Source: Faecalibacterium sp. I3-3-89 (GTDB lineage: Bacteria > Bacillota > Clostridia > Oscillospirales > Ruminococcaceae). From it: a DNA stretch of 64,000 nt. A program made the position numbers and the translations under genes. Each line of letters starts with the position of its first letter. The first letter of the stretch is position 1. Below the pieces are notes generated by a model. It was not told where the DNA came from and searched no databases. It worked only from the letters and a program-made list of their open reading frames with translations. Below, in pieces: positions 661-46,260 of this stretch. Location of the stretch: the NCBI RefSeq assembly GCF_023347275.1, contig NZ_CP094468.1, positions 1,054,001 through 1,118,000 on the forward strand. Direction: 5' to 3'.

Positions 661-1905
661 ATGCGTAAAGCAACCAACAAGAACTGGCAGCGCGTCACCG
701 CCGCTGCCGCCGCACTGGCCCTGTGTGCCGGTGTGCTCACCGGCTGCGGTGCATCTTCTTCTACTGCTGCCAGCAGCGCCGCAGCAAGCTCTGCTGCCGC
801 CAGCGAGGTGAGCAGCGAGGAGGCCGATGAAATGGCAGCAAAGAACGTGGCAGATCTCATCGACGCCATCTATGTGCAGGAGCGCAACGAGAACACCGAC
901 GCCCAGTGCGAGGCCGCCAAGGCCGCATGGGACGCCTTGACCGATGCCCAGAAGGAGCTGGTCGAGGGTGAAGAGGCTGACCCCGATTACTTTGGCCGCG
1001 ACACCGGCGATGCCTCCAAGGACGACCCCCGCAATGAGGACAACATCGGCGACAACGAGATCCTCGTCGTCAGCTTCGGCACCTCCTTCAACGACAGCCG
1101 CGCAGCGGACATCAAGGGCATCGAGGATGCCATTCAGGCCGCTTACCCCGACTGGTCTGTCCGCCGTGCCTTCACTGCACAGATCATCATCAACCATGTG
1201 CAGGCCCGTGACGGCGAGAAGATCGACAACATGGAGCAGGCTATGGAGCGCGCTGTCGCCAACGGCGTGAAGAATCTGGTCGTCCAGCCCACCCACCTGA
1301 TGCACGGCGCGGAGTACGACGAGATGATGGAGCTGGTGGACAGCTACCGCGACAAGTTCGAGTCTGTCGCTGTCGCCGAGCCTCTGCTGGGCGAGGTGGG
1401 CAGCGATGCCACCGTCATCAACGCCGACAAGGAGGCTGTCGCCAAGGCAATCACCGCTGAGGCCGTCAAGACCGCTGGCTTCGACAGCGTGGACGCCGCT
1501 GCTGCGGATGGCACCGCCTTCGTTTTCATGGGCCACGGCACCTCTCACACCGCAAAGGTGAGCTACAGCCAGATGCAGGCTCAGATGAACGCTCTGGGCT
1601 ACAAGAATGTCTTCATCGGCACCGTCGAGGGTGAGCCGGAGGAGACTGACTGTGAGAATGTCATCGAGGCGGTCAAGGCCGCCGGCTACACCAAGGTCGT
1701 CCTGCGTCCCCTGATGGTCGTTGCAGGCGACCATGCCAACAATGATATGGCGGGCGATGACGATGATTCCTGGAAGAGCCAGTTCGAGGCCTCTGCTGCA
1801 TTCGATTCCGTCGAGTGCCAGATCGCAGGTCTGGGCGAGATCGCTGACATCCAGCAGCTCTACATCGCACACACCAAGGCCGCTGTCGATTCCCTGAACG
1901 GCTGA
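661..1905 (+). CDS. cbiK: CbiK-type sirohydrochlorin cobaltochelatase, predicted lipoprotein
   Basis: This 414-residue protein has a lipoprotein signal (hydrophobic stretch ending in LTGCG at about residue 30), an Ala/Ser-rich linker and a roughly 45-residue acidic helical segment. A CbiK-like chelatase domain starts near residue 135 (VVSFGTSFNDSRA). The two metal-site histidines expected of the family are visible: H292 in GHGTSH and H358 in GDHANNDMAGDD. CbiK inserts cobalt into sirohydrochlorin, the entry step of the anaerobic B12 pathway. The gene is immediately downstream of the B12 riboswitch. An exported, membrane-anchored chelatase is unusual for a synthesis that otherwise runs in the cytoplasm; a role in external tetrapyrrole or cobalt handling is an alternative. 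Confidence 0.85.
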   Translation: MRKATNKNWQRVTAAAAALALCAGVLTGCGASSSTAASSAAASSAAASEVSSEEADEMAAKNVADLIDAIYVQERNENTDAQCEAAKAAWDALTDAQKELVEGEEADPDYFGRDTGDASKDDPRNEDNIGDNEILVVSFGTSFNDSRAADIKGIEDAIQAAYPDWSVRRAFTAQIIINHVQARDGEKIDNMEQAMERAVANGVKNLVVQPTHLMHGAEYDEMMELVDSYRDKFESVAVAEPLLGEVGSDATVINADKEAVAKAITAEAVKTAGFDSVDAAAADGTAFVFMGHGTSHTAKVSYSQMQAQMNALGYKNVFIGTVEGEPEETDCENVIEAVKAAGYTKVVLRPLMVVAGDHANNDMAGDDDDSWKSQFEASAAFDSVECQIAGLGEIADIQQLYIAHTKAAVDSLNG

Positions 1906-2028: not shown

Positions 2029-2874
2029 ATGAAACTGAAAAATAAATGCTCTCTTCTGCTGGCCGGTGTGATGCTGGCCGGTGCACTCGTCGGCTGCGGC
2101 GCATCCAGCGCCCCGGCCAGCTCTGCCGCTTCCTCCGAGGCAGCGGCCTCCTCTGCCGTGAGCGAGGCTGCTTCTGCCTCCGCTGAGGCGGCGCTGCCCG
2201 ACGGCACCTACGCCGCTGATTTTGACACCGACAGCTCCATGTTCCACGCCAATGAGGCATTCGACGGAAAAGGCACGCTGACCGTGAAGGACGGTCAGAT
2301 GACGCTCCACGTCAGTCTCGTCTCCAAGAACATCGTCAACCTCTACGTCGGCACGGCAGAGGACGCGGCCTCCCACGAGGCCGACTGGCTCCAGCCCACC
2401 ACCGATGTGGTGAACTACAGCGACGGCACCTCGGATGAGGTGTACGGCTTCGACATCCCGGTGGAGGCACTGGACACGGACTTCTCCGTTGCCATCCTCG
2501 GCAAGAAGGGCAAGTGGTACGACCACACCGTCAGCGTCCGCAATGCACAGCCCACGATGGAGGAGGCCCTTGCCGACGGCGCCTATACCTGCGACGTGAC
2601 CCTTGAGGGCGGCTCCGGCCGCGCCACCGTGGAAAGCCCTGCGGCCCTGACCGTGGCCGACGGCAGGATGACCGCCACCATCGTCTGGTCCAGCCCCAAC
2701 TACGACTATATGCTGGTGGACGGCGAAAAGTATCTGCCCACCAACACCGAGGGCAACTCCACCTTCGAGATCCCCGTCGCCGCCCTCGACACCCCGCTGG
2801 ATGTGGTGGGCGATACCGTCGCCATGAGCACCCCGCACGAGATCGAGTATACGCTGACCTTTACGCTGAAGTAA
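2029..2874 (+). CDS. Two-repeat lipoprotein next to the corrinoid importer
   Basis: This 281-residue protein has a lipobox (ALVGCG, Cys near 23), an Ala/Ser linker to about residue 60, and then two related beta-rich repeats. The repeats start at about 62 (DGTYAADFD) and about 183 (DGAYTCDVT). Each has a TVKDGQM/TVADGRM core, a Tyr-containing middle and an IPVEALD/IPVAALD strand. The architecture suggests a surface ligand-binding protein. Its place directly before the BtuF-like gene (30 bases) suggests it hands ligand to that importer. A NEAT-like fold is possible but I cannot demonstrate it. The function is inferred from context only. Confidence 0.6.
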   Translation: MKLKNKCSLLLAGVMLAGALVGCGASSAPASSAASSEAAASSAVSEAASASAEAALPDGTYAADFDTDSSMFHANEAFDGKGTLTVKDGQMTLHVSLVSKNIVNLYVGTAEDAASHEADWLQPTTDVVNYSDGTSDEVYGFDIPVEALDTDFSVAILGKKGKWYDHTVSVRNAQPTMEEALADGAYTCDVTLEGGSGRATVESPAALTVADGRMTATIVWSSPNYDYMLVDGEKYLPTNTEGNSTFEIPVAALDTPLDVVGDTVAMSTPHEIEYTLTFTLK

Positions 2875-2904: not shown

Positions 2905-4038
2905 ATGAAGCGCCGCAATTTTCTGAAAGCCCTGCCCGCCGCCGCACTTACCCTCGCTGGCTGCGGACAGGCAGAGACCGCCCCGGCCAATACGGCCTCT
3001 CTCGTGTTCGACCACAGCTATCCGCTGGACTATGCGGCTCAGTTCTCCGCCGACTGCTATGAGGGGGGATATGTGCTGGTGAATATCCCGGACAGCGGCA
3101 GATTCCTCGTGATCCCCGAGGACGCGGCAGAGGTGGATGACCTGCCCGCCGATGTTGTCCCGCTCCGCCAGCCGCTGGACAACATCTACCTCGTCTCCAC
3201 CTCGGTGATGGACCTCTTCGTCCATCTGGATGCGCTGGACTGCATCGCCCTCTCTGGCACCAAGGCCGAGGGCTGGTATGTGGAGGAGGCCAAGCAGGCC
3301 ATGCAGGAGGGCCGCATCGCCTACGCCGGCAAGTACAGCGCCCCGGACTATGAGCGGATCCTTGCTTCCGGGTGCAGCCTCGCCATCGAGAACACCATGA
3401 TCCTCCATGACCCTGCGGTCAAGGAACAGCTGGAAAAGTTCGGCGTGCCGGTGCTCATCGAGCGCTCGAGCTATGAGAGCGGCCCGCTGGCCCGGATGGA
3501 GTGGCTCAAGCTCTACGGCATCCTGCTGGGCAGGACCGAGCAGGCGGAGGAAATTTTCCGCCAGAAGGTGGAGCAGGTGGCCCCCATCCTCGGGCAGGAG
3601 AGCACCGGAAAAACGGTGGCTTTCTTCTCCATCACGTCGAACAACCTCATCACCGTCCGCCGCACCAGCGACTATGTGGCCCAGATGGTGGGGATGGCGG
3701 GCGGCGTCTACATTTTTGACGACCTCGAGGGGGACAGCCCGGGCCAGTCCACCATCAAGCTGCCCCTCGAGACCTTCTACGCCCGGGCCAAAGACGTCGA
3801 TGTCCTCATCTACAACAGCACCATCGAGGGCGTCGTGGAGACCCGTGACCAGCTCATCGAAAAGTGCCCCATGCTGGAGGAGTTCAAGGCTGTCCAGTCC
3901 GGCGACTGCTGGTGTACGGCCCAGAGCCTGTTCCAGCAGAGCATGGAGCTGGCCGACCTCATCTCCGATATGAACCTCGTTTTTACCGAGGGCAGGCCCG
4001 ACCCGGCCTCCCTCCGCTTTTTGCAGCAGATCGTATAA
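2905..4038 (+). CDS. Corrinoid/metal-chelate ABC importer, substrate-binding lipoprotein (BtuF/FecB type)
   Basis: This 377-residue protein starts with MKRRNFLKALPAAALTLAGCG, which combines an RR-containing signal with a lipobox. The mature part has the helical-backbone class III binding-protein pattern, with two lobes joined by a long helix. Recognisable segments are the VSTSVMDLFVHLDAL region, GKYSAPDYERILA and the late DLISDMN end. Such proteins capture cobalamin, heme or siderophores outside the membrane. The downstream permease and ATPase and the surrounding cbi genes point to a corrinoid. The start is fixed by the lipoprotein signal and a GAGGTT-like site. Confidence 0.8.
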   Translation: MKRRNFLKALPAAALTLAGCGQAETAPANTASLVFDHSYPLDYAAQFSADCYEGGYVLVNIPDSGRFLVIPEDAAEVDDLPADVVPLRQPLDNIYLVSTSVMDLFVHLDALDCIALSGTKAEGWYVEEAKQAMQEGRIAYAGKYSAPDYERILASGCSLAIENTMILHDPAVKEQLEKFGVPVLIERSSYESGPLARMEWLKLYGILLGRTEQAEEIFRQKVEQVAPILGQESTGKTVAFFSITSNNLITVRRTSDYVAQMVGMAGGVYIFDDLEGDSPGQSTIKLPLETFYARAKDVDVLIYNSTIEGVVETRDQLIEKCPMLEEFKAVQSGDCWCTAQSLFQQSMELADLISDMNLVFTEGRPDPASLRFLQQIV

Positions 4039-4051
4039 AAGGAGCATTGTC

Positions 4052-5071
4052 ATGACTACCACACGCCGCCTCAGCCTCGCCTACCTCGCCCTCACGGCGG
4101 GGCTTGCGGTGCTGTTCGCGCTCAACCTGTTCTGGGGCAGCGTGGAGCTGACGCCCGGGGCAGTGGCTGCAGCCCTGCTGGGCCGGGGTGGGGATGCGCT
4201 GGCTGTGGGCATCGTGCTGCAGCTGCGCCTGCCCCGGGCCGTCATGGTGGTGCTGCTGGGCGCGGCCCTCTCTGCAGCGGGCTACCTTTTGCAGACCTTC
4301 TTTGCCAACCCCATTGCAGGCCCCTTCGTCATGGGCGTGTCCAGCGGCGCGAAGCTGGCCGTGGCCCTCACGATGGTGGTCTTCCTGCAAAGGGGGCTGC
4401 TTACCGGTTCGGCCACCCTCATCATCGCGGCCTTTGCGGGCGCGATGGCGGCGATGGCCTTCGTGCTGGTGGTGGCCCGGCGGGTGCCCCGGATGAGCAT
4501 CCTTGTCATCTGCGGCATCATGATCGGCTACATCTGCTCGGCCATCACCGACATCGTCGTGACCTTCGCGCAGGACTCCAACATCGTCAACCTCCACAAC
4601 TGGTCGATGGGCAGCTTTTCCGGCATGACGTGGGCCAACGTGGGCGCTGCGGCCTGCGTGGTGCTGCCCGCACTGGCAGCGGCATTCCTCCTCTCCAAGC
4701 CTATGGCGGCCTACCAGATGGGGGAAAGCTATGCCCGAAGCGTCGGCGTGCCGGTGCGGGCCTTCTCGACGGCCCTCGTGCTCCTTTCCAGCCTCCTCTC
4801 CGCCTGCGTGACGGCCTTTGCCGGGCCGATCTCGTTCGTGGGCATCGCGGTGCCTCATCTGGTCAAGAGCCTGCTGGGCAGCGCCAAACCCCTCTATGTC
4901 CTGCCGGGCTGCTGCCTTGGCGGGGCGGCGTTCTGCCTGCTCTGCGACCTTATCGCCCGCAGCCTATTCGCGCCCACCGAGCTGTCCATCAGCTCGGTGA
5001 CAGCAGTTTTTGGTGCACCGGTGGTCATCTGGCTGCTGGTGCGCCGCCAGACAGAGGGAGGCCGGGAATGA
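4052..5071 (+). CDS. Corrinoid-type ABC importer permease (BtuC/FecCD family)
   Basis: This 339-residue, strongly hydrophobic protein shows the FecCD/BtuC pattern: LRLPRAVMVVLLGAALSAAGYLLQ near residues 50-75, NPIAGPFVMGVSSGAKLAV, and GPISFVGIAVPHLVKSLLG near 255. About nine or ten membrane segments are expected. It forms the translocation channel for the ligand delivered by the 2905 product. It starts 13 bases after that gene with an AAAGGAG site, and its end overlaps the next ATG by four bases (ATGA). Confidence 0.85.
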   Translation: MTTTRRLSLAYLALTAGLAVLFALNLFWGSVELTPGAVAAALLGRGGDALAVGIVLQLRLPRAVMVVLLGAALSAAGYLLQTFFANPIAGPFVMGVSSGAKLAVALTMVVFLQRGLLTGSATLIIAAFAGAMAAMAFVLVVARRVPRMSILVICGIMIGYICSAITDIVVTFAQDSNIVNLHNWSMGSFSGMTWANVGAAACVVLPALAAAFLLSKPMAAYQMGESYARSVGVPVRAFSTALVLLSSLLSACVTAFAGPISFVGIAVPHLVKSLLGSAKPLYVLPGCCLGGAAFCLLCDLIARSLFAPTELSISSVTAVFGAPVVIWLLVRRQTEGGRE

Positions 5072-7032
5072 GCGAAGAAAAAGCCTTCTGCCGCACCGAT
5101 GACCTTGCCATCGGCTACGGCAAAACGCCCCTGATGGAGCACATCCGCCTCGGAGCCGAAAAGGGGAGCATCCTCACCCTCATCGGACCCAACGGTGCGG
5201 GCAAATCTACCCTCCTCAAGACGCTGGCGGCCCAGCTGGCCCCGCAGGGGGGCGCTGTCCTGCTGGACGGAAAGAGCCTTGCGGACTACTCCGGCCCTGA
5301 GCGCGCCCGGAAGATGGCCCTGATGGTGCCCCACACCCGCCGCACTGAGTTGACCACCTGCTTTGAAATGGCCTCCGCCGGGCGCTACCCCTACACGGGG
5401 CGGCTGGGCGTCCTCTCGGCGGAGGACAGGCGGCAGGTCCACGCTGCGCTGGCTCTCGTGGGGGCCGAAGCGCTGGCGGGGCGGGACTTCAACTGCATCA
5501 GTGACGGCCAGCGCCAGCGCGTGCTGCTGGCCCGGGCCATCTGCCAGCAGCCGGAGCTGATCCTGCTGGACGAGCCGACGTCCTTCCTTGACATCAAGGG
5601 CAAGGCCGAGCTTCTGGCCATCCTGAAGAGCCTCGCCCGGGACAAGAAGATGGCCGTCATCCTCAGCCTCCACGAATTAGAGCTGGCCCAGAAGATCTCG
5701 GATAAGGTCGTCTGCGTCTCGGCGGCGGGCGTCTCGGACGTTATGACGCCCGGACAGGCGTTTGCCCGGGAAAACATCTGTAAAATTTATGATTTGAGCG
5801 ACGAGCAGTACGCTTTTCTGTACGGTGAAGCGAAAAAGCCCGCCGAGACGGGGCAGCCCCGCTTTGAGCACTATGTCCGCAGCGGTCAAAAGCTCCTGCG
5901 CTGCGGTTACACCACCGGCACCTGCGCGGCGCTGGGGGCGGCGGGCGCAGCCCGTCTCCTCCTCACCGGCCGCGCCCCGGAGACGGTGGCCCTCCGCACC
6001 CCGAAGGGCATCGTGGTGGAGGTAGAGCCGATCTTCTGCCGCCGGTCGGGCGAGGGAGCGGCGTGCGCCATCCGCAAAGACGGCGGCGACGATGTGGACG
6101 TGACCACCGGCCTGCCGGTCATTGCCGGTGTGACCCTCCGGCCGGAGCTGGCCGGAGAGGTGTGCATCCACGGCGGCGAGGGGGTGGGCCGGGTGACGAA
6201 GCCCGGCCTCGACCAGCCGGTGGGCGAAGCCGCCATCAACCACGTCCCCCGGGCCATGATAAAGGAGGCGCTGGAAAAGGAGGCGGAGTCTGCCGGATAT
6301 GCGGGCGGCTTCGATGTCACCATCTCCATCGAGGGCGGGGCCGAGACAGCCAAGCGCACCTTCAATCCCCACATGGGCGTGGAAGGCGGCCTCAGCGTCC
6401 TCGGCACCAGCGGCATTGTCGAGCCGATGAGCCAGCAGGCCATCCTCGACACCATCCAGCTGGAGATGGGGCAGGTCGCGCTTCGGGCAGGGACGCCCCG
6501 GCGGCTCATCCTCGCCCCGGGCAACTACGGGCTGGACTATCTCCACGAGAATCTGCCGGCTCTGAAGTGCATCCCGGTGGTCAAGACCTCGAACTTCATC
6601 GGCGATGCGCTGGATATGGCGGCTGCGTCAAAATTCGAGCAGGTGGTGCTGGTGGGCCACATCGGCAAGCTGGTCAAGCTGGCGGGGGGCGTCATGAACA
6701 CCCATTCCCGCACGGCGGACTGCCGCACCGAGCTGCTCTGCGCCCACGCCGCTCTCTGCGGCGCGTCCCGGGGCGTCTGCGCATCCCTGATGGGCGCCGC
6801 CACCACCGACGCCTGCATGGAGATCCTAGACAAGGCGGGGATGAGAGAGCCAGTGCTGTCGAGCTTGCTGGACGCCATCCAGCTCCACCTCGACCGTCGC
6901 GCCGCCGGGGCGTTCCGGGTGGGCGCGGTGCTCTTCTCCAACCAATACGGCCCGCTGGGCCAGACCAAGACTGCAAAGGAGCTGCTGGACGAATGGAAAA
7001 ACGGATCGGCGTCTTGTACGGCGTCAGTGTAG
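5068..7032 (+). CDS. cbiD: Fusion of BtuD-type ABC ATPase and CbiD (cobalt-precorrin-5B C1-methyltransferase)
   Basis: This is one uninterrupted 654-residue frame. Residues 1-255 are an ABC ATPase: Walker A GPNGAGKST (40-48), a signature written ISDGQRQRV (145-152) instead of LSGGQ, Walker B LILLDEPTS and H-loop H202. After a short linker (about 255-272), CbiD begins with LRCGYTTGTCAALGAA (about 277) and continues to the C-terminus (GNYGLDY, GHIGKLVKLAGGVMNTHS). CbiD methylates C1 of cobalt-precorrin-5B. The ATPase would drive the permease at 4052. I see no in-frame start codon at the junction, so separate translation is unlikely. The ATG overlaps the permease stop. Confidence 0.88.
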   Translation: MSEEKAFCRTDDLAIGYGKTPLMEHIRLGAEKGSILTLIGPNGAGKSTLLKTLAAQLAPQGGAVLLDGKSLADYSGPERARKMALMVPHTRRTELTTCFEMASAGRYPYTGRLGVLSAEDRRQVHAALALVGAEALAGRDFNCISDGQRQRVLLARAICQQPELILLDEPTSFLDIKGKAELLAILKSLARDKKMAVILSLHELELAQKISDKVVCVSAAGVSDVMTPGQAFARENICKIYDLSDEQYAFLYGEAKKPAETGQPRFEHYVRSGQKLLRCGYTTGTCAALGAAGAARLLLTGRAPETVALRTPKGIVVEVEPIFCRRSGEGAACAIRKDGGDDVDVTTGLPVIAGVTLRPELAGEVCIHGGEGVGRVTKPGLDQPVGEAAINHVPRAMIKEALEKEAESAGYAGGFDVTISIEGGAETAKRTFNPHMGVEGGLSVLGTSGIVEPMSQQAILDTIQLEMGQVALRAGTPRRLILAPGNYGLDYLHENLPALKCIPVVKTSNFIGDALDMAAASKFEQVVLVGHIGKLVKLAGGVMNTHSRTADCRTELLCAHAALCGASRGVCASLMGAATTDACMEILDKAGMREPVLSSLLDAIQLHLDRRAAGAFRVGAVLFSNQYGPLGQTKTAKELLDEWKNGSASCTASV

Positions 7033-7694
7033 GCCCGGGCGACCCGGAGCTGATGACCCTGAAGGCGGTCCGCTGCCTCGAAAAATGCCCGGTCATCGCC
7101 GCACCCCAGACCGCAGGAGGCCGGATGCTGGCGCTGGACATCGCCCGGGGCGCGGTCGGGCTGGACGGCAAGACCATCCTGCCCCTGCGCTTTGCCATGA
7201 GCCGCGACCCGGAGATGCTGCGCGCCTCCCATGAGGAGGCCGCCCGGGCGGTGAAAGAGTATCTGGATGCCGGGCAGGACGTCGCCATGCTCAACCTCGG
7301 CGATGTCTCGGTCTATGCCACCTTCGGCTATCTGCAGGAGATCTTAGAGGCAGAGGGCTATAAGACCGTGAGGATCCCCGGGGTGCCAAGCTTCTGCGCC
7401 GCCGCGGCCCGGCTGGGCCAGTCCCTGACGGGCGGGATGGAAGCGCCTCTGACCATCGCCCCGGGACGACACGCGGCCGAGGTACTGGCCGCACCGGGGA
7501 CGAAGGTGCTGATGAAATCGGGCCGTCAGCTGCCGGAGACGCTGGCCGCACTGGCCGAAGCCGGGCTTCTGGGCCGCAGTGCGATGGTCTGCAACTGCGG
7601 CCTGCCGGACGAGGAGGTCTGGCCCGACCTGTCTGCCTGCGATGCCAGCCGTCCGGCGGGCTATTTTGCAACGATCTTAGTAAAGGAAGGGTAA
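6993..7694 (+). CDS. cbiL: Cobalt-precorrin-2 C20-methyltransferase
   Basis: This 233-residue tetrapyrrole methylase starts at ATG 6993, 40 bases inside the end of cbiD in another frame. The family N-terminal SAM-binding loop is GVSVGPGDPELMTLKAV, followed by LNLGDVSVYATFGY and the PGVPSFCAAAARLG segment typical of CbiL. It adds the C20 methyl group early in anaerobic corrin synthesis. The long overlap suggests translational coupling to the cbiD fusion gene. Confidence 0.92.
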   Translation: MEKRIGVLYGVSVGPGDPELMTLKAVRCLEKCPVIAAPQTAGGRMLALDIARGAVGLDGKTILPLRFAMSRDPEMLRASHEEAARAVKEYLDAGQDVAMLNLGDVSVYATFGYLQEILEAEGYKTVRIPGVPSFCAAAARLGQSLTGGMEAPLTIAPGRHAAEVLAAPGTKVLMKSGRQLPETLAALAEAGLLGRSAMVCNCGLPDEEVWPDLSACDASRPAGYFATILVKEG

Positions 7695-7699
7695 CGGAT

Positions 7700-8467
7700 A
7701 TGGTTCATTTTGTGGGAGCGGGGCCGGGTGCCCCCGACCTCATCACCCGTCGGGGCGCGGCCCTGCTGGCCGATGCCGACTGCATCATCTATGCGGGCAG
7801 CCTCGTCAACCCGGCCCTGCTGGGTCTGGCAAAGCCCGGCTGCGCCATCTACAACAGCGCCGAGATGACGCTGGAACAGGTGCTGGACACCATCCGCGCT
7901 ACGGAGCAGGCGGGCGGCACCACCGTCCGCCTCCACACCGGCGACCCCTGCCTTTATGGGGCCATCCGGGAGCAGATGGATGCGCTGGACGCCGACGGCA
8001 TCCCCTACGATGACACCCCGGGTGTGTCCAGCTTCTGCGGCGCAGCGGCGGCGCTCTGTGCCGAGTACACCCTGCCCAATGTGAGCCAGACCGTCATCAT
8101 CACCCGGATGGAGGGCCGCACCCCCGTCCCCGAGGCCGAGCAGCTGGCAAAGCTGGCCGCGCATGGGGCCACCATGGTCATCTTCCTCTCCATCGGGCTG
8201 GTGGACAAGGTCCAGCAGGCCCTCCTTTCCAGCGGCGGCTACCGCTCCGACACTCCCGCCGCAGTGGTGTATAAGGCCACATGGCCGGAGCAGAAGGTGG
8301 TGCGGTGCACCGTCTCCACGCTGGCCGAGGAGACCCGCAAAAACGGCATCACCAAGACGGCCCTCATCGTCGTGGGCGATTTTCTGGGGCGGGATTACGA
8401 CCGCAGCAAGCTCTACGACCCTGCCTTTACCACCGAGTTCCGGCAGGGGACGGAGGCCGGAAAATGA
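7700..8467 (+). CDS. cbiF: Cobalt-precorrin-4 C11-methyltransferase
   Basis: This 255-residue protein has the methylase motifs VGAGPGAPDLITRRGA at the N-terminus, HTGDPCLYGAIREQMDAL in the middle and PGVSSFCGAAAAL. All match CbiF. The start follows AAAGGAAGGGTAACGGAT, with normal spacing. Its stop overlaps the ATG of cbiG (ATGA at 8464). Confidence 0.93.
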   Translation: MVHFVGAGPGAPDLITRRGAALLADADCIIYAGSLVNPALLGLAKPGCAIYNSAEMTLEQVLDTIRATEQAGGTTVRLHTGDPCLYGAIREQMDALDADGIPYDDTPGVSSFCGAAAALCAEYTLPNVSQTVIITRMEGRTPVPEAEQLAKLAAHGATMVIFLSIGLVDKVQQALLSSGGYRSDTPAAVVYKATWPEQKVVRCTVSTLAEETRKNGITKTALIVVGDFLGRDYDRSKLYDPAFTTEFRQGTEAGK

Positions 8468-9456
8468 GCTGTGCGTATCTGGCCTTTACGGCAAGGGGCG
8501 AGGCACTGGCCCGTCGGCTGGCGGAGGCCCTGCCCGGCAGCGTGAGCCGCTGCGGCGGGGAAGTGACCCTGAAGGGCTGGACGGCGGAGCACTTTGCACA
8601 GAACGAGGCGCTTATTTTTGTAGGAGCTGTGGGCATCGCCGTCCGGGCCGTCGCGCCCTATTGCAAAAGCAAGGCCAGCGACCCAGCGGTGGTGGCTGTG
8701 GACGAGGGCGGGCAGTTCGCCGTGCCCCTGTTGTCGGGCCATCTGGGGGGCGCGAATGCGCTGGCCCGGGCGCTGGCGGAGGTCTGCGGCGCGGTGCCGG
8801 TCATCACGACGGCCACCGATGTCAACGGCCTTTTTGCCGTGGACCTCTGGGCCAAGGCGCAGGGCTGCGCCCTCCTTGAGCCGGAGCGCATCAAGCGCGT
8901 CAGCGGCACCCTGCTGGCCGGACAGACCGTCCGGTACTGGTCGGCGTGGCCGGTGGCGGGGGAGGCCCCCGCCGGGGTGGAGCGGGCCGGGACGCCCGAG
9001 GCCGCTGATTTCGCCCTCACCCTCACGCCGGAGGGCGGGGCGCTCCACCTCGTGCCCCCCATCGGGGTGCTGGGCGTGGGGTGCCGCCGGGGCACGACGG
9101 CAGAGCGGCTGGAAGAGGCGTTCTCGGCCTTCTGTGCCTCGTCGGGCCTCAGCCCGGCGGCAGTCTCGGCGGCTGCCAGCATCGACCTGAAAAAAGAGGA
9201 GCCGGGACTTGCGCAGTTCTGCGAAGCCCACGGCTGGCCCATCACATTCTATTCGGCAGACCAGCTGCGGGCCGTGCCGGGGCAGTTCACCCCCTCGGCC
9301 TTCGTGGCCGGTGTCACCGGCGTGGACAACGTCTGCGAGCGGGCAGCGGCAAAAGCCTCGGGCGGGGCGCTCCTGCTGCCCAAGACAGCGGGCGGCGGCG
9401 TGACGCTGGCGCTGGCCGTCCGCCCCTTTGCACCCGATTGGAGGACAGAGCAATGA
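8464..9456 (+). CDS. cbiG: Cobalt-precorrin-5A hydrolase
   Basis: This 330-residue protein opens the delta-lactone ring of cobalt-precorrin-5A and releases acetaldehyde. The N-terminal CbiG domain shows FVGAVGIAVRAVAPY and PLLSGHLGGANALAR. The C-terminal domain has GVGCRRGTTAERLEEAF, a SIDLKKEEPGL segment and VTGVDNVCERAA. The ATG overlaps the cbiF stop, and the gene ends four bases past the start of cbiH. Confidence 0.92.
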   Translation: MSCAYLAFTARGEALARRLAEALPGSVSRCGGEVTLKGWTAEHFAQNEALIFVGAVGIAVRAVAPYCKSKASDPAVVAVDEGGQFAVPLLSGHLGGANALARALAEVCGAVPVITTATDVNGLFAVDLWAKAQGCALLEPERIKRVSGTLLAGQTVRYWSAWPVAGEAPAGVERAGTPEAADFALTLTPEGGALHLVPPIGVLGVGCRRGTTAERLEEAFSAFCASSGLSPAAVSAAASIDLKKEEPGLAQFCEAHGWPITFYSADQLRAVPGQFTPSAFVAGVTGVDNVCERAAAKASGGALLLPKTAGGGVTLALAVRPFAPDWRTEQ

Positions 9457-10196
9457 GTGAGAACCGAAAGACCGTGTTCGTCGTGGGGCTTGGCCCCGGC
9501 GGCGGACAGTTTCTGACCGTGCAGGCGCAGAGCGCCTTGCAGCAGGCCGAGGTGTTGTGCGGCTATACGGTCTACATCGACCTTGTGCGCCCCCTCTACC
9601 CGGAAAAGGAGTGCTACGCCACCGGCATGACCCGGGAGCTTGACCGCTGCCGCTGGGCGCTGGATACCGCCCGGGCAGGCCGGGATGTGGCGCTGGTCTG
9701 CTCCGGCGATGCCGGGGTCTACGGCATGGCAAGCCCCCTTCTGGAACTGGCCGAGGCGTATCCGGGTGTTGATGTGGAGGTCGTGCCCGGCCTGACCGCC
9801 GCCCTCAGCGGCGGGGCGGTGCTGGGGGCACCGCTGGCCCACGATTTCTGCGTCCTCTCTCTGTCCGACCGCCTCACGCCGTGGGAGGTCATCGAAAAGC
9901 GTCTGGCCTGCGCGGCGCAGGGCGATTTCGCGCTGGCGCTGTACAATCCCTCCTCCAAGGGCCGCCCCGACTACCTGCGCCGGGCCGTGGACATCCTGCT
10001 GGCCCACGGCAAGGCCCCTGACACCCTCTGCGGCTGGGTGCGGAACATCGGCCGGGAGGGACAGGAAAAGCAGCTCCTGCCTCTCAGCCAGCTCCGGGAC
10101 ACCGAGGTGGATATGTTCACCACCGTCTTTGTGGGCAACGCGGCTACCCGCGCACTGAGCGGGCGGATGGTCACGCCGCGGGGGTATCGCCGATGA
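9453..10196 (+). CDS. cbiH: Cobalt-precorrin-3B C17-methyltransferase
   Basis: This 247-residue tetrapyrrole methylase has VVGLGPGGGQFLTVQAQ at the N-terminus, CSGDAGVYGMASPLLE, a VVPGLTAALSGGAVLGAPLAHDF segment and LYNPSSKGRPDYL, all characteristic of CbiH. It catalyses ring contraction and C17 methylation. A GAGGACAGAG site precedes the ATG, and the stop overlaps the cbiJ start. Confidence 0.93.
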   Translation: MSENRKTVFVVGLGPGGGQFLTVQAQSALQQAEVLCGYTVYIDLVRPLYPEKECYATGMTRELDRCRWALDTARAGRDVALVCSGDAGVYGMASPLLELAEAYPGVDVEVVPGLTAALSGGAVLGAPLAHDFCVLSLSDRLTPWEVIEKRLACAAQGDFALALYNPSSKGRPDYLRRAVDILLAHGKAPDTLCGWVRNIGREGQEKQLLPLSQLRDTEVDMFTTVFVGNAATRALSGRMVTPRGYRR

Positions 10197-10930
10197 GAGT
10201 GGTCCTGTTCAGCGGTACCACCGAGGGGCGGGAGCTTTCCCGTCGGCTGGCAGAGCTTGGCCTTGAAGTCACCGTCAGCGTAGCCACCCCGCTGGGGCAG
10301 GAAGAGCAGGGGAGCGCCCCCGGCGTCACCGTCCGGTGCGGGCGGCTCCTGCCCGATGAGATGGCCGCTCTCCTGAAGGGCGCTGCCCTCTGCATCGACG
10401 CCACCCACCCCTACGCAGTGGAGGCGACGAAGAACATCCGGGCGGCGGCAGAGTCGGCGGGGGTCGGGTATCTCCGCCTCCTCCGCCCGGCCAGCCCCCT
10501 GCCGGAGGGCTGTCTTGTCTTCGGGAGCGCAGGGCAGGCGGCGGAGGCGCTGGCGCAAAAGGAAGGAAACCTTCTGCTGGCCACCGGAGCCAAAGAGCTG
10601 ACTCAGTTTGCGGCCATCCCGCCCCAGCGGCTCTATCCCCGCGTCCTGCCCACGCTGGAAAGCATCGCAGCCTGTGAGGCGGCGGGCATCCCCCACCGCA
10701 ACATCATCGCCATGCAGGGGCCGTTCAGCTTCGCGCTCAATCAGGCGATGATGGAGCAGTTCCGTATCCGCTGGCTGGTCACGAAAGACGGCGGCGCAGC
10801 GGGCGGATTCGACGAAAAAGCCGCTGCTGCCGCCGCCGCGGGGGCGCAGCTGGTGGTCATCCGCCGCCCGCCCGAGGAGGGCGAGACGGCGGAAGAGGTG
10901 CTGAAACGCTGCAAGGAGATGATAAGATGA
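10193..10930 (+). CDS. cbiJ: Cobalt-precorrin-6A reductase
   Basis: This 245-residue protein has the CbiJ N-terminal motif VLFSGTTEGRELSRRLAELG and the conserved IDATHPYAVEATKNIRAAAE segment. Later come RVLPTLESI and the MQGPFSFALNQAMMEQF and WLVTKDGGAAGGFDEK stretches. It reduces the macrocycle using a pyridine nucleotide. Both ends overlap their neighbours by four bases. Confidence 0.92.
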   Translation: MRVVLFSGTTEGRELSRRLAELGLEVTVSVATPLGQEEQGSAPGVTVRCGRLLPDEMAALLKGAALCIDATHPYAVEATKNIRAAAESAGVGYLRLLRPASPLPEGCLVFGSAGQAAEALAQKEGNLLLATGAKELTQFAAIPPQRLYPRVLPTLESIAACEAAGIPHRNIIAMQGPFSFALNQAMMEQFRIRWLVTKDGGAAGGFDEKAAAAAAAGAQLVVIRRPPEEGETAEEVLKRCKEMIR

Positions 10931-12120
10931 ACGTGACACTCATCGGCATGGGTTCCGGCCAGCCCGAGAGTCTGACCCTCCAGAGTCTGGCCGCGCTGCG
11001 GCAGGCCGACCTCATCCTTGGTGCGCGGCGTCTGCTGGCGGCTCTGCCCGCCGGCTGCACTGCCAACCGCGCCGCTGCCTACCGCGCCGACGAGGTGGCG
11101 GAGCTTCTGCACACCTCCGGCGCAGAGAACGCCGTGCTGGTCTACAGCGGCGACACCGGCTTTTACTCCGGCGCAGCCGCGCTGCTGGATAAGCTTTCGG
11201 CTCTCGGCATCCGCACCCGGGTGCTGCCGGGTCTTTCCAGCGTCCAGCTCCTTGCGGCGGCGCTGGGCCGTCCGTGGCAGGACTGGAACCTCGTCTCGGC
11301 CCATGGCCGCGCCTGCGACCCGGTGGCCGAGTGTATGCAGGGCAGGCCCGCCTTTTTCCTCACCGGCGGCAGTGAAGACCCTGCCACCCTCTGCGCCCAG
11401 CTGGCGGCGGAGGGCTTCGGCGAGGTGGAGGCCGTCGTGGGCCAGTGCCTCGGCACGCCGGAAGAGAAGCTCTTCCGGGGCAGGGTGCAGGAGCTGGCGG
11501 CGGGCCGCTTCGACAGCCTGAGCGTCCTCCTCGTGGAGGCCGCAGAGGTGCAGCCCCGCCGCACGCCGGGCCTGCCGGATGAAGCGTTCGAGCGGGGCAG
11601 TGTCCCCATGACCAAGCAGGAGGTGCGGGCTGCTGTGCTGGCAAAGCTGGCCGTCCGCCCGGAGGATATCCTGTGGGACGTGGGGGCCGGGACGGGCAGT
11701 GTCAGCGTGGAGCTGGCGCTGGCTGCGCCCCGGGGCAGGGTCTACGCGGTGGAGTGCGACCCGGAGGGCTGCGCCCTCATCCGGGCCAACCGCCAGAGAT
11801 TCCTCGCCCGCAACCTGACCCTCGTGGAGGGGCTTGCCCCCGCCGCGCTGGCCGACCTGCCCGCGCCGGACGCCGTCTTTATCGGCGGCAGCAAGGGCAG
11901 CCTCGCCGCCATCGTGGACGCTGCGCTGGAAAAGAACCCCGCCGCCCGCATCTGTGCGTCGGCCATCGCCCTCGAGACCCTCTCGGCGGCGGTGGCTGCG
12001 CTGACGGCCCGGGGCCGGACGGTGCAGGTGAGCCAGATCGCCGTCAGCCGGGCCAGAGCCGTGGGCGGGCTGCACCTCATGATGGCCCAGAACCCTATCT
12101 ACCTCATCACGGGAGAATGA
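10927..12120 (+). CDS. cbiET: Bifunctional cobalt-precorrin-7 C5- / precorrin-8 C15-methyltransferase (decarboxylating), CbiE-CbiT fusion
   Basis: The protein is 397 residues. Residues 1-200 are the CbiE methylase: LIGMGSGQPESLTLQS, VYSGDTGFYSGAAALL and VLPGLSSVQLLAAALG. From about 220, after a short linker (GSVPMTKQEVRAAVLAKL), comes CbiT, with DVGAGTGSVSVELA as the SAM-binding motif and AVECDPEGCALIRANRQRF. The fusion methylates C5 and C15 and decarboxylates the acetate side chain. It is coupled to cbiJ by ATGA. Confidence 0.94.
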   Translation: MNVTLIGMGSGQPESLTLQSLAALRQADLILGARRLLAALPAGCTANRAAAYRADEVAELLHTSGAENAVLVYSGDTGFYSGAAALLDKLSALGIRTRVLPGLSSVQLLAAALGRPWQDWNLVSAHGRACDPVAECMQGRPAFFLTGGSEDPATLCAQLAAEGFGEVEAVVGQCLGTPEEKLFRGRVQELAAGRFDSLSVLLVEAAEVQPRRTPGLPDEAFERGSVPMTKQEVRAAVLAKLAVRPEDILWDVGAGTGSVSVELALAAPRGRVYAVECDPEGCALIRANRQRFLARNLTLVEGLAPAALADLPAPDAVFIGGSKGSLAAIVDAALEKNPAARICASAIALETLSAAVAALTARGRTVQVSQIAVSRARAVGGLHLMMAQNPIYLITGE

Positions 12121-12122
12121 CC

Positions 12123-13475
12123 ATGATCCAATTTCTGCTGGCGGCACCCCGCTCGGGCAGCGGCAAGACCACCATGACCTGCGCCCTCCTGATGGCGCTC
12201 AAGCGGCGGGGCTACACGCCCTGCGCATTCAAGAGCGGGCCGGACTACATCGACCCCATGTTCCACCGGGCGGTGCTGGGGGTGGAGAGCCACAACCTCG
12301 ACCTCTTTTTCTCCCCGCCCGAAACGGTGCGTACCCTCTACGCGAAGGGAGCCTCCGGCCACGGCGCGGCGGTCTGTGAGGGGGCGATGGGCTTCTACGA
12401 TGGCCTCGGCGGTGTGAGCGACAAGGCCAGCGCGTGGCATCTGGCCGACACGCTGGGCCTGCCGGTGCTGCTGGTGGTGGAGCCGAAGGGCCAGAGCCTG
12501 ACGCTGGCCGCAGAGCTGCGGGGCCTCGACGGCTTCCGCACCCCCAGCCATCTTGCGGGCATCCTGCTCAACAACTGCACGGCCCGGATGCACGCCCTGC
12601 TGGCCCCCATGCTGGAAGCGGAAACGGGCCTGCCGGTGCTGGGTTTCCTGCCCAAGCTCCCGGAGGCCGTCATCGGGAGCCGCCATCTCGGCCTCTATAC
12701 GGCGGCAGAGGTGGAGGACCTGCAAAAAAAGCTGGCCGCACTGGCCGCAGCGGCGGAGGAGCAGATCGACTGGCCCCGCCTGCTGGCCCTCTGCGAAAAA
12801 GAGCCGCCCGCCCTGTCCGGGCAGGCGGAGACACCCCCGGCCCGCGTCCGCATTGCTGTGGCGCAGGACGAAGCCTTCTGCTTCACCTACGCCGAGACGC
12901 TGGAAGCGCTCCGGGACGCCGGGGCAGAGCCAGTCTTTTTCAGCCCTCTCCGGGACGCAAGCCTGCCGGAGAAGGTCGGCGGGCTGTATCTGCCCGGCGG
13001 CTACCCGGAGCTTCACGCCAAAGCACTGAGCGAAAATACCGCGCTTCTGCGCGAGATAAAAAAGAGGGTCGAAGCCGGTCTGCCCACAGTGGCCGAGTGC
13101 GGCGGCTTCCTCTATCTGGGGCAGCGGCTCACCGACACCGCCGGGCAGAGCTGGCCGATGGCCGGCGTTCTGCCGGGGACGGCGCAGGACGCCGGGCGGC
13201 TCGTCCGGTTCGGATATGCCGAGCTGAGGGCCGAAGAGGACAGTATGCTCTTCCGGTCCGGAGAGCATTTTCCCATCCATGAGTTCCACCACTGGGACTC
13301 CACCGCCAACGGCACGGCCCTCACGGCCCGCAAGCCGGTGGGGGGCACGGAATGGCGGTGCGGATTTGCAAACGAGCATTTCTATGCGGGTTTCCCGCAT
13401 TTATACTGGGCGGGCACGCCCCTGCCGCAGCGTTTTGCCGCTGCGGCGGAAACATATAGGAGAGACCATGACTGA
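12123..13475 (+). CDS. cbiA: Cobyrinate a,c-diamide synthase
   Basis: The protein is 450 residues from the preferred ATG. An in-frame ATG at 12117 sits one base from the GGGAG site, whereas ATG 12123 is seven bases away. The N-terminal P-loop APRSGSGKTT and the FKSGPDYIDPMFH and CEGAMGFYDGLGG segments form the ATP-amidation domain. The C-terminal glutaminase carries YLPGGYPELHAKAL and the nucleophile Cys in AECGGFLYLG. It amidates the a and c carboxylates of cobyrinic acid. Confidence 0.93.
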   Translation: MIQFLLAAPRSGSGKTTMTCALLMALKRRGYTPCAFKSGPDYIDPMFHRAVLGVESHNLDLFFSPPETVRTLYAKGASGHGAAVCEGAMGFYDGLGGVSDKASAWHLADTLGLPVLLVVEPKGQSLTLAAELRGLDGFRTPSHLAGILLNNCTARMHALLAPMLEAETGLPVLGFLPKLPEAVIGSRHLGLYTAAEVEDLQKKLAALAAAAEEQIDWPRLLALCEKEPPALSGQAETPPARVRIAVAQDEAFCFTYAETLEALRDAGAEPVFFSPLRDASLPEKVGGLYLPGGYPELHAKALSENTALLREIKKRVEAGLPTVAECGGFLYLGQRLTDTAGQSWPMAGVLPGTAQDAGRLVRFGYAELRAEEDSMLFRSGEHFPIHEFHHWDSTANGTALTARKPVGGTEWRCGFANEHFYAGFPHLYWAGTPLPQRFAAAAETYRRDHD

Positions 13476-14544
13476 GACAGAACTTGCCGCCCTCTGCGCG
13501 GCCATCACGCCGCCGGACGAAGCCGCCCGGGCGGCGGCACACGCCCACTGGGCCAGCCTCGCAAAACCGCTGGGCGGGCTGGGGGCACTGGAAACTGTGC
13601 TCGAAGACGCCGCGGCCCTTACCGGCAGCGCGAAACTGGAGTTTTCCCACCGCGCGGTGCTGGTGCTCTGCGCCGACAACGGCGTGGTGGCGCAGGGCGT
13701 CAGCCAGACCGACAGCAGCGTGACCCGCGCCGTGGCCGAGAACCTCGCCGCCCGCCGCACCAGCGTCTGCCGGATGGCCCAGACGGCCCGGTGCGAGGTG
13801 GTGCCGGTGGATATGGGCATCGCGGGCGGGCCTGTGGCAGGCGTCCTCGACTGCCGCATCGCCCCGGGCACGGCGGACTTTACCCTTGGCCCGGCCATGA
13901 GCCGGGCGCAGGCTGTGGAAGCGGTCGGACGGGGCATCCGGCTGGTGCAGGAGCAGAAGAAAGCGGGCGTCGGCCTGCTGGCCACCGGGGAGATGGGCAT
14001 TGGCAACACGACAACGTCCAGCGCCGTGGCCGCTGTCCTGCTGGGGCAGCCGGTGGAGCGGATGACAGGACGAGGGGCAGGCCTCTCGGATGCAGGCCTT
14101 GCCCGGAAGGTCGATGCCATCCATCGCGGCATCGTCCGGAATCAGCCCGACCCCGCCGACCCGCTGGACGTGATGGCGAAGCTGGGCGGCTTCGACATCG
14201 CGGGGCTTTGTGGCATCTTTCTCGGCGGGGCCTTGGAGGGAGTGCCCGTGCTGGCCGACGGCTTCATCAGCGGAGTGGCGGCGCTCTGCGCAGTCCGGCT
14301 CTGCCCGGCGGCGGAAAAGGCGGTCTTTGCCAGCCATTGCTCTACCGAGCCGGCCGCGAAGCTGGTGCTGGATGCACTGAACAAAAAAGCCCTCATCACG
14401 GCAGGCCTCCATCTGGGCGAGGGCACCGGCGCGGTGGCCGCCATCCCGCTGTGGGATATGGCGCTGGCCGTCTACGATGGCTGCTATTCCTTCGCAGAGG
14501 GCGGCATCGATGCCTACACGCCGCAGGGAGGCGCGGGATGCTGA
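13468..14544 (+). CDS. cobT: Nicotinate-nucleotide:dimethylbenzimidazole phosphoribosyltransferase
   Basis: This 358-residue protein activates the lower-ligand base. It shows the family segments SLAKPLGGLGALE, LCADNGVVAQGVSQ, TGEMGIGNTTTSSA and, near the C-terminus, LHLGEGTGAVAAIPL with the catalytic Glu. The start overlaps the end of cbiA by eight bases, and AGGAGAGACC supplies the binding site. No BluB or anaerobic bza genes are visible, so the source of the base is not shown here. Confidence 0.93.
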   Translation: MTETELAALCAAITPPDEAARAAAHAHWASLAKPLGGLGALETVLEDAAALTGSAKLEFSHRAVLVLCADNGVVAQGVSQTDSSVTRAVAENLAARRTSVCRMAQTARCEVVPVDMGIAGGPVAGVLDCRIAPGTADFTLGPAMSRAQAVEAVGRGIRLVQEQKKAGVGLLATGEMGIGNTTTSSAVAAVLLGQPVERMTGRGAGLSDAGLARKVDAIHRGIVRNQPDPADPLDVMAKLGGFDIAGLCGIFLGGALEGVPVLADGFISGVAALCAVRLCPAAEKAVFASHCSTEPAAKLVLDALNKKALITAGLHLGEGTGAVAAIPLWDMALAVYDGCYSFAEGGIDAYTPQGGAGC

Positions 14545-15062
14545 CGCTGGTCATCGGCGGCGCAGCCAGCGGAAAGAGCGCCTACGCCGAGAGTCTTGTC
14601 TTAAAGACCGGCCTGCCCCGGTACTACCTCGCCACCATGCAGGTCTGGGACGCCGAGTGCGCCGCCCGGGTGGAAAAGCACCGGAAGATGCGGGCCGAAA
14701 AGCAGTTCGAGACGCTGGAGTGCCCGCTCCACCTCGACCATCTGGCTCTGCCCGGCCGGGGGACCGTCCTCTTGGAAGACCTCGGCAACCTTGTGGCCAA
14801 TGAGCTTTACGACCCCGGCGGGGCGGGAGAGCACACCGCAAAGGCCGTTCTGACCGGGCTGGAGCGCCTCGCCGCCGGGTGCAGCGACCTCATCGTCGTG
14901 TCGAACGAGGTGTTCAGCGGCGGGGCCGACTATGTAGGCGATACCGCGCAGTATCTGCGGGCGCTGGCGCAGGTAAACAACGCCTTCGCCGCCCGGGCGG
15001 ACAACGTCTGCCTGGTGGTCTGCGGCCTGCCGGTGTATTACAAGGGGGGAGAGAAGCTGTGA
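14538..15062 (+). CDS. cobU: Adenosylcobinamide kinase / adenosylcobinamide-phosphate guanylyltransferase
   Basis: This 174-residue protein has P-loop GGAASGKSAYAE, the YYLATMQVWDAEC segment, KHRKMRAEK, a DLGNLVANELY stretch and VVSNEVFSGG. It phosphorylates and then guanylylates adenosylcobinamide for nucleotide-loop assembly. The usual GIVP after NEVG is written FSGGADYV here, a divergent form. The gene overlaps the cobT stop and the cobS start. Confidence 0.9.
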   Translation: MLTLVIGGAASGKSAYAESLVLKTGLPRYYLATMQVWDAECAARVEKHRKMRAEKQFETLECPLHLDHLALPGRGTVLLEDLGNLVANELYDPGGAGEHTAKAVLTGLERLAAGCSDLIVVSNEVFSGGADYVGDTAQYLRALAQVNNAFAARADNVCLVVCGLPVYYKGGEKL

Positions 15063-15811
15063 CCATTTTGCAGACCATCGCGGTAGCCTTTGCGATGTTT
15101 TCGGCCCTGCCGGTACCGCAGTTCGGGTGGAACGAGAAGAATATGCGGTACGCCATGTGTGCCTTCCCCCTCATCGGGCTGGTGTGCGGCGGGCTGTGGT
15201 GCCTCTGCGGCGTCCTGCCCCTGCCGGATATGGCCCGGGCGGCGGCGTTCTGCCTCGTGCCGGTGGCTGTCACCGGCGGCATCCATCTGGACGGCTATGC
15301 CGACACCTCGGATGCCCTCTCGAGCTACGGCGACCGCGAAAAAAAGCTCGAGATCCTGAAGGATTCTCACTGCGGTGCCTTTGCCGTCATCCGGCTGTGC
15401 AGTTATTTTGTCGCCTACTTCGGCCTCTGCGGCAGTGTGCGGTTCACCCCTCGTGTGGGGCTGTGCTGGACGCTGGCGCTGGTGCTGGAACGGGCGCTGT
15501 CCGGCTTTGCCGTGGCGGCATTCCCGCTGGCGAAGGATACCGGCCTTGCCCACACCTTCGCCACGGCGGCGGACAGGCAGACCGTCCGCCGTTTCCTCTG
15601 CGGGGCGTCGGCCCTGCTGGTGCTGGCGCTGACGGTGCTGGGGGGTGGTGCTCTGGCGGCAGCGGCGCTTCTGGCGATGAGCCGCTATTATTTTGTGGCG
15701 AAAAAGCAGTTCGGCGGCATCACCGGCGATCTGGCCGGGTGGTTTCTGCAGCGGGCTGAGCTGTGGATGCTGGCGGCGCTGGCTGTCAGCCAGTGGGGAG
15801 GAGTGCTGTAA
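15059..15811 (+). CDS. cobS: Adenosylcobinamide-GDP ribazoletransferase (cobalamin synthase)
   Basis: This 250-residue membrane protein starts at GTG 15059, which overlaps the cobU stop and is preceded by a GGGGGGAGAG site. The metal-binding motif HLDGYADTSDAL (near residues 80-91) and several hydrophobic helices identify CobS. It joins alpha-ribazole to adenosylcobinamide-GDP. No ATG precedes the conserved region except one around residue 13, so the GTG start is favoured. Confidence 0.9.
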   Translation: MTILQTIAVAFAMFSALPVPQFGWNEKNMRYAMCAFPLIGLVCGGLWCLCGVLPLPDMARAAAFCLVPVAVTGGIHLDGYADTSDALSSYGDREKKLEILKDSHCGAFAVIRLCSYFVAYFGLCGSVRFTPRVGLCWTLALVLERALSGFAVAAFPLAKDTGLAHTFATAADRQTVRRFLCGASALLVLALTVLGGGALAAAALLAMSRYYFVAKKQFGGITGDLAGWFLQRAELWMLAALAVSQWGGVL

Positions 15812-16138
15812 ATGATGTTCATCACAGGGCCGCTCTACAGCGGCAAGCGCACCTTTGCGCGGAAGTTCCGGGGCAGCGTCATCGCCGATGTGCAGGACGC
15901 CGCTGCGGAAGTCCAGACCCCGGAGCAGCTCGAAGCGCTGGCCCGGGAGCTGGCGGAATACGATATTGTCATCGCCACCGAGGTCGGCGGCGGTGTTGTC
16001 CCGATGGATGCCGGAGCGCGTGCCGGGCGGGAGGCCGCCGGGCGGCTGGCCTGCCTGCTGGCCGCCCGCGCCGACTGCGTGGTGCAGATGTTCTGCGGCA
16101 TCCCGACGGTATTGAAAGGAGAATTGCCCTCATGTTGA
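15812..16138 (+). CDS. Miniature CobU-like P-loop protein
   Basis: This 108-residue protein lies between cobS and cobC. Its N-terminus (MFITGPLYSGKRTFARKF) is a P-loop of the CobU kind. Residues 50-95 (EVGGGVVPMDAGARAGREAAGRL) match the C-terminal part of CobU. The central region that binds the other half of the active site is missing. A full-length cobU sits just upstream. It could be a duplicated and shrunken copy, a regulatory partner or a minimal kinase; none of these is established. It follows the cobS stop directly and overlaps cobC by seven bases. Confidence 0.65.
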   Translation: MMFITGPLYSGKRTFARKFRGSVIADVQDAAAEVQTPEQLEALARELAEYDIVIATEVGGGVVPMDAGARAGREAAGRLACLLAARADCVVQMFCGIPTVLKGELPSC

Positions 16139-20223: not shown

Positions 20224-20224
20224 A

Positions 20225-46182: not shown

Positions 46183-46260
46183 CCGGGTGTAGCGCAGTTT
46201 TGGTAGCGCGCTTGAATGGGGTTCAAGAGGCCGTGAGTTCGATTCTCGCCACTCGGACCA
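46183..46260 (+). tRNA. tRNA-Pro (anticodon GGG)
   Basis: The acceptor stem CCGGGTG pairs with CACTCGG, with one G-T pair, then A and an encoded CCA end. The D arm is GCGC..GCGC, the anticodon arm CTTGA-ATGGGGT-TCAAG gives anticodon GGG, and the T arm is GTGAG-TTCGATT-CTCGC. All arms close. A terminator follows at 46267. Confidence 0.95.

Follow-up and report, generated by a model that had tools for sequence, protein, structure and literature searches.

How can an importer come to carry an enzyme of corrin-ring synthesis on its own ATPase, and what would such an importer bring into the cell? The question is raised by a 64,000-nucleotide stretch of Faecalibacterium sp. I3-3-89 DNA (contig NZ_CP094468.1, positions 1,054,001 to 1,118,000; hereafter the window, in whose numbering positions are given). 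There, one open reading frame (ORF) on the plus strand, at 5068..7032, joins an importer-type ATP-binding cassette (ABC) ATPase to CbiD. The ORF is confirmed as a genuine in-frame fusion. A single frame runs from an ATG at 5068 to a stop codon ending at 7032, encodes 654 amino acids and contains no internal stops. The sequence GGGAGG stands immediately 5' of the start, the stop of the permease gene overlaps the start (ATGA), and the cbiL frame begins within the 3' end of the fusion gene.

The ATPase-CbiD fusion

The ATPase part (5068..5826, residues 1-253) matches the Pfam family ABC_tran (PF00005) over residues 25-172 with 101.7 bits; its end was placed by eye from an alignment with unfused relatives. 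The CbiD part (5863..7032 including the stop codon, residues 266-654) matches CbiD (PF01888) over residues 277-541 with 291.9 bits against a cut-off of 25. The TIGR00312 CbiD profile scores 387.4 bits (cut-off 200) and is covered over positions 1-345 of 346. In an alignment, 59 of the 60 columns conserved in unfused CbiD are retained. The original prediction of one uninterrupted frame with a complete CbiD is thus borne out, and by its full-length family match the CbiD half is a predicted cobalt-precorrin-5B C1-methyltransferase.

Between the two parts lies a linker of 12 residues (5827..5862, residues 254-265), rather than the roughly 15 first proposed. It was delimited by eye, between ATPase homology that reaches to about residue 253 and CbiD homology that begins at about residue 266. 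Among the fused proteins its length is 6 to 21 residues (counted by eye) and its sequence is variable. The junction had also been described as lacking a start codon, which is nearly exact: the only in-frame start codons across residues 201-300 are an ATG at 5743 and a TTG at 5794. Neither has an obvious Shine-Dalgarno sequence, and an internal start yielding free CbiD is therefore unlikely. The ratio of nonsynonymous to synonymous differences (pN/pS) was 0.07-0.43 for the ATPase, 0.11-0.30 for CbiD and 0.33-1.09 for the linker in eight pairwise comparisons, with synonymous sites saturated in some. By these ratios the ATPase and CbiD halves both look to be under constraint.

The ATPase motifs GPNGAGKST, LDEPTS, SDGQ and LHEL are present in the fusion. 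Walker A (residues 40-48) and the signature ISDGQ (residues 144-148) were found as predicted. With Walker A and B, signature and H-loop in place, and a FecCD permease gene overlapping its start, this half is a complete ABC importer ATPase of the kind that partners FecCD permeases. The signature had been regarded as altered, but it is ordinary here. SDGQ occurs in 48 of the 49 unfused relatives aligned (among which a few rows duplicate a genome); it is thus a mark of the subfamily and was rejected as a novelty of the fusion. Glutamine is the usual residue of the ABC ATPase Q-loop. None was found in residues 83-98 of the window protein (5314-5361), where, with the column assigned by reading, a histidine stands at 89. 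The position is mostly histidine in fused proteins and mostly glutamate in the unfused relatives shown; glutamine is mostly missing there too.

Distribution and origin of the fusion

The full-length fusion was found in 14 of 31 Faecalibacterium genomes, and 10 more carry CbiD unfused. It is also present in Gemmiger formicilis and isolate MH27-2, and an F. longum relative stands at 92%. A very large protein search detected both domains in all of the best 120 relatives listed, and the relatives with both domains include clusters with 2,248 and 13,119 members. Of the loci fetched, 23 contain a frame spanning both domains (several of these are duplicate retrievals of a genome). With full-length fusions recurring across the genus and among the best listed relatives, an artefact or frameshift is ruled out as their source. 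Outside the genus, no full-length match was found among 297 family genomes, with four candidates per genome scored; this sample holds only five genomes of the window's genus, and Gemmiger formicilis and MH27-2 were not identified among them. A search of a plasmid collection gave no match.

The fused proteins form one clade in both a 73-row CbiD tree and a 62-row ATPase tree, each time with a support of 100 in the Shimodaira-Hasegawa-like approximate likelihood ratio test (SH-aLRT). These were quick trees with SH-aLRT support only; 16 loci repeating other genomes were left out by a hand-made list, and some duplicates remained. A single fused clade for both domains fits one origin. Separate genes were seen in locus L059, where the ATPase gene ends at 9104 and CbiD starts at 9120, 16 bases apart. 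The original prediction had named two separate genes in related strains as evidence against the fusion. The L059 lineage lies outside the fused clade, so its two-gene arrangement is likely the older state and not a sign of an error in the fusion call.

Unfused ATPases such as those at L059:7830-9104, L063:5225-6346, L065:7983-9122 and L072:8001-9134 have a C-terminal extension of about 110 residues, which has no Pfam match and is absent from the fusion. Among 31 unfused ATPases from loci with the NEAT-like marker protein described below, 22 show the extended length (364 amino acids or more); the other nine have 230-257 (one is cut by a contig end). Because the extension is this common and the fusion lacks it, we infer a deletion route. 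The fusion likely arose once between two adjacent genes, through a deletion that removed the ATPase extension, the stop codon and the CbiD start, although this is not proven.

The joining itself could be neutral: a chance deletion between neighbours that left both activities unaffected, which is compatible with any cargo. The 16-base spacing in L059, the single origin that fits the trees, and a linker that varies in length and changes fast all suit this explanation, as does the position of CbiD, which comes after other enzymes in the route. On the other hand, no split copy was found inside the fused clade among the genomes and loci examined, despite protein identities of 71-78% between distant fused members. 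Since CbiD would act several steps after the proposed cargo, the chances of neutral joining are judged to be even.

Operon context and the recurring module

The fusion gene belongs to a plus-strand operon headed by a cobalamin riboswitch aptamer (RF00174, 267..484; 91.2 bits against a gathering score of 31.5). Upstream of the fusion lie genes for a CbiK-family chelatase with a lipoprotein signal (661..1905; PF06180, 248.1 bits against 26.2; lipobox LTGC found by eye), a NEAT-like lipoprotein (2029..2874; LVGC), a substrate-binding lipoprotein (2905..4038; LAGC; PF01497, 91.2 bits) and a FecCD-type permease (4052..5071; PF01032, 258 bits). Downstream, cbiL, cbiF, cbiG, cbiH, cbiJ, cbiET, cbiA, cobT, cobU and cobS (6993..15811) were named by their best NCBIfam models; cbiG, cobU and cobS score below the cut-offs of these models, and cbiL scores above its own. 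The further late B12 genes cobC, cbiB, cobD, cbiP, btuR and cbiC (15812..21405) were named by reading the ORFs, with no family search. Apart from the riboswitch, the 64-kb window gave a single RNA family match, a tRNA gene at 46183-46257.

The window CbiK retains the motifs GHG, VEG and GDHA, which are presumably catalytic. It lies below the equivalog cut-off for sirohydrochlorin cobaltochelatase (NF047852, 196.2 against 400). Its relatives in the PDB are 1qgo, the heme-binding FetB (9b86, the second match) and 2xvx, which we take to be CbiKP of Desulfovibrio vulgaris. The NEAT-like protein, aligned with 11 relatives, matches PF05031 with 33.9 bits against 32.8, with no single stretch passing alone; a relative in L065 scores 42.4 and one in L059 scores 19.7. 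A PDB search with it gave weak matches, mostly to antibodies. The binding protein had no PDB relatives at 0.01.

The set of exported-type CbiK, NEAT-like lipoprotein, binding protein, permease and ATPase recurs as a module, in most cases behind a cobalamin riboswitch. The NEAT-like protein served as the marker for tracing the module through the 297 family genomes and was found in 34 of them. All 34 carry CbiD, compared with 93 of the 297 overall (hypergeometric 5e-20). CbiK is also present in 32 of 33 fetched marker loci, and 28 of these 32 proteins show a simple lipobox pattern; the four misses are two over-long frames, one cut frame and one non-standard box. A cobalamin riboswitch was detected in 27 of the 33 marker loci (some being the same genome twice), as well as in 8/8 other module loci (one of them fused), 2/2 within the genus and 8/8 fused loci. 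Gene order varies, with CbiK following the ATPase in several loci, and the L151 stretch shows neither permease nor ATPase.

Precursor supply and chelatases in the genus

Enzymes that act early in tetrapyrrole synthesis were largely undetected in Faecalibacterium. HemB and HemC were each found in 0/31 genus genomes, and the control searches were positive in 11 of 14 named genomes for both. SUMT over the cut-off (control: 11 of 14) and SirC (control: 9 of 14) were each found in a single genus genome, G024, which has no CbiD match. Consequently none of the 24 CbiD-bearing genus genomes has a detected HemB, HemC, SUMT over the cut-off or SirC; HemA, HemL and HemD were not searched. Given this lack of detected early enzymes, sirohydrochlorin or a later compound apparently must come from outside. 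Judged by its gene content, with cbi genes present and early genes not found, the window's genome would count as that of a tetrapyrrole precursor salvager.

CobN was likewise found in 0/31 genus genomes (control: 5 of 14), which rules it out as the chelatase. The available part of a review (PMC8123684) has a table that apparently puts F. prausnitzii in its CobN row, unlike the result here. Each of the 24 CbiD-bearing genus genomes has one CbiK match (partial in G023). A CbiX model gave nine weak matches, each within a CbiK gene. In the window's genome the CbiK with the lipoprotein signal is the only cobaltochelatase found by the CbiK, CobN and CbiX searches.

The genus offers a natural contrast. 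Among the 24 CbiD genomes, 16 have the long module-type CbiK (the 14 fused genomes, G021 and G023) and in the other 8 a short CbiK immediately precedes CbiD. The module of G021 and G023 carries no fusion and lies away from CbiD. The G023 CbiK (L133:5717-6552) matches only in its last part and overlaps the riboswitch, and so appears to be cut short in this assembly. Where unfused genus members were checked (L137, L138, L140 and L145), dusB directly precedes the CbiK-CbiD or CbiD operon.

Cargo of the importer

The best explanation of these results is that exported CbiK metallates scavenged sirohydrochlorin, that the resulting cobalt-sirohydrochlorin is imported, and that the fusion holds CbiD at the importer; as a whole it has about an even chance of being correct. 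Cells without early tetrapyrrole enzymes would scavenge sirohydrochlorin, and CbiK would insert cobalt into it outside the membrane. The lipoproteins would then hand cobalt-sirohydrochlorin to the permease, and ATP hydrolysis by the fused ATPase would drive its import. The enzymes from CbiL to CbiA would complete the corrin ring. An ABC importer usually has two ATPases, so two copies of CbiD would be held at each importer. The sequences themselves show the fusion, its single clade, the recurring module with its riboswitch, the undetected early enzymes and one chelatase of exported type; what the importer carries, where cobalt is inserted and whether a tethered CbiD is of any use are inferred. 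A stronger form, an import-coupled assembly line in which a surface cobaltochelatase, a dedicated importer and the ATPase-borne CbiD gather the corrin-ring enzymes at a membrane port, is a tentative and rather doubtful proposal.

The association of the marker with missing HemB is consistent with precursor import. HemB was not found in 29 of the 34 marker genomes, compared with 27 of the 59 CbiD genomes without the marker (Fisher 1.7e-4); counted by genus, HemB absence is 14/18 versus 17/42 (p = 0.011). The co-occurrence lists were compiled by hand, rows with a match to the ATPase part alone did not count towards CbiD, and the CbiD and marker searches scored first-look candidates only, so misses are possible.

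Several observations weigh against import of cobalt-sirohydrochlorin. The counts above ignore kinship, eight genera occur in both groups, and there is almost no contrast within genera. HemB is present in five of the 34 marker genomes, and both HemB and the marker are missing from 27 CbiD genomes; the module is therefore neither confined to HemB-less cells nor required by them. In one of these, the unfused genus member G016 (L136:5489-9534), a riboswitch and genes for a binding protein, a FecCD permease and another ATPase come before a short CbiK and CbiD, which indicates that other solutions exist. This arrangement may be a second kind of precursor importer whose chelation step takes place in the cytoplasm. 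CbiD, moreover, acts several steps after the proposed cargo, and tethering it at the port has no obvious advantage.

Some other genomic neighbourhoods count in favour of a corrinoid importer. In G005 and G024 (L134, L135) a related transporter stands beside CbiA and late B12 genes, with no CbiK or CbiD match and no NEAT-like protein in the stretch; it perhaps serves corrinoid salvage. In L063 the NEAT-like protein and transporter adjoin hemA and a HemC-SUMT-HemD protein. The latter (L063:9552-12050) has 832 residues and joins HemC, a tetrapyrrole methylase and HemD. From these three arrangements, some related transporters may carry corrinoids.

The window's importer could accordingly be an ordinary BtuFCD-type importer of corrinoids (B12 or cobinamide), the fusion coupling corrinoid salvage to corrin-ring synthesis. 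Besides these neighbourhoods, the cobalamin riboswitch at the head of the operon favours this reading, and models of the FecCD, BtuC and BtuD type give the permease and ATPase their best scores or good ones. Against it, the scores stay below the cut-offs of the BtuC and corrinoid-ATPase models (NF003001 and NF007082; 206.1 against 334 for the permease, 164 against 537 for the ATPase), and the window permease and ATPase reach no equivalog cut-off of the BtuC, BtuD or FecE type. A corrinoid importer should also serve cells without CbiD, yet the marker occurs only in CbiD genomes. It would have no need of the CbiK found in 32 of 33 marker loci, and it leaves the retained cbi genes without a detected precursor supply. 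Overall, a corrinoid importer is unlikely. The original prediction had tied corrinoid uptake to de novo synthesis. An importer and corrin-ring synthesis do share one operon and in part one polypeptide, and from the fusion it follows that a single protein level would set both. The de novo part is not supported, with HemB and HemC undetected in all 31 genus genomes and SUMT over the cut-off and SirC detected only in G024. Corrinoid as the cargo is possible and not the best supported, given the exported-type CbiK in the module and a marker restricted to CbiD genomes.

A further difficulty for cobalt-sirohydrochlorin as the cargo is that CbiL is needed to use it, yet is missing from the operon in several fused lineages. 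CbiL was not found in the operon stretches of L050-L057 and L059, nor in the fetched stretches of G002, G007, G014, G017 and G029, with some genomes occurring more than once among these (elsewhere in the genomes it was not sought); L179, L182, L184, L187 and L189 are named among the stretches without it. Such operons would be explained by a later, C20-methylated intermediate as cargo. Other tetrapyrroles to be considered are metal-free sirohydrochlorin and siroheme, the latter with metal exchange by CbiK; the chemistry of class II chelatases could accommodate several metals. CbiL is, however, present between CbiD and CbiF in the window (where it scores above its cut-off), L048, L049, L058 and G030. 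A metal-free compound, once imported, would call for a chelatase in the cytosol, and the searches of the window's genome revealed none. A cargo of one of these kinds is improbable, though a C20-methylated one would account for the operons without CbiL.

Finally, one PDB relative of CbiK, 9b86, is named as the heme-binding FetB, which raises the alternative of heme-iron gathering. Exported CbiK would strip iron from heme, the NEAT-like protein would bind heme, and the cbi neighbourhood would be secondary. FetB is the second PDB match, NEAT is named as an iron-transport domain, and IhtB is termed a putative ferrochelatase or reverse ferrochelatase in the available text of PMC13227078. The cobalamin riboswitch in most marker loci and the confinement of the marker to CbiD genomes speak against this alternative. 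So do two further points: no cobaltochelatase other than the module CbiK turned up in the window's genome, and the NEAT match is marginal in the window and below the cut-off in L059. Heme-iron gathering is therefore very improbable.

Relation to known systems

Like BtuFCD and FecBCD importers, the system has a binding protein, a FecCD permease and a matching ATPase. It differs in that the ATPase is fused to CbiD and has the SDGQ signature, and in the adjoining exported-type CbiK and NEAT-like lipoprotein. The CbiD half resembles other CbiD proteins in its full-length match over the cut-off and its conserved columns, but it bears an N-terminal ABC ATPase and has no CbiD start of its own. With the exported CbiKP of D. 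vulgaris and with FetB/IhtB, the window CbiK shares a CbiK-fold family found outside the cytoplasm (PDB relatives 2xvx and 9b86). D. vulgaris reportedly has two such chelatases; the window CbiK, unlike these, is the only one found in its genome, where it stands first in an operon that has a B12 riboswitch and an importer.

The available text of PMC6461909 describes tetrapyrrole precursor salvagers and tests three users of 5-aminolevulinate; it names no importer and leaves Faecalibacterium unmentioned. The window's genome is like these salvagers in having corrin-ring genes without detected early tetrapyrrole genes, and unlike them in that an importer of a late precursor is proposed here instead of 5-aminolevulinate use. 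Precorrin-2 salvagers are put at 0.6% in the accessible part of PMC8123684. F. prausnitzii A2-165 was the only strain of 15 without good growth when cobalamin was omitted (PMC7360928, as far as its text was available), and its authors allowed that the medium might have contained precursor traces; the strain was not matched to a genome here. This growth behaviour agrees with dependence on an external source but does not prove it.

The fusion and the module were unreported in the literature searched, which covered few subscription journals; the available portions of PMC8123684, PMC6593275 and PMC4403557 contain no such fusion. An importer for a late tetrapyrrole precursor was not named in that literature either, including the accessible text of PMC6461909. 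The novelty is one of known parts in a new physical arrangement.

The module is a concrete candidate for a late-precursor importer in a common human gut genus, in which genomes with the long module CbiK and genomes with a short CbiK before CbiD can be compared. The fusion offers a direct handle, since one protein marks the importer and the pathway together. If the proposed explanation is true, the choice of cobalt for B12 would take place outside the membrane, and some gut bacteria that seem to make B12 would rely on precursors from others.

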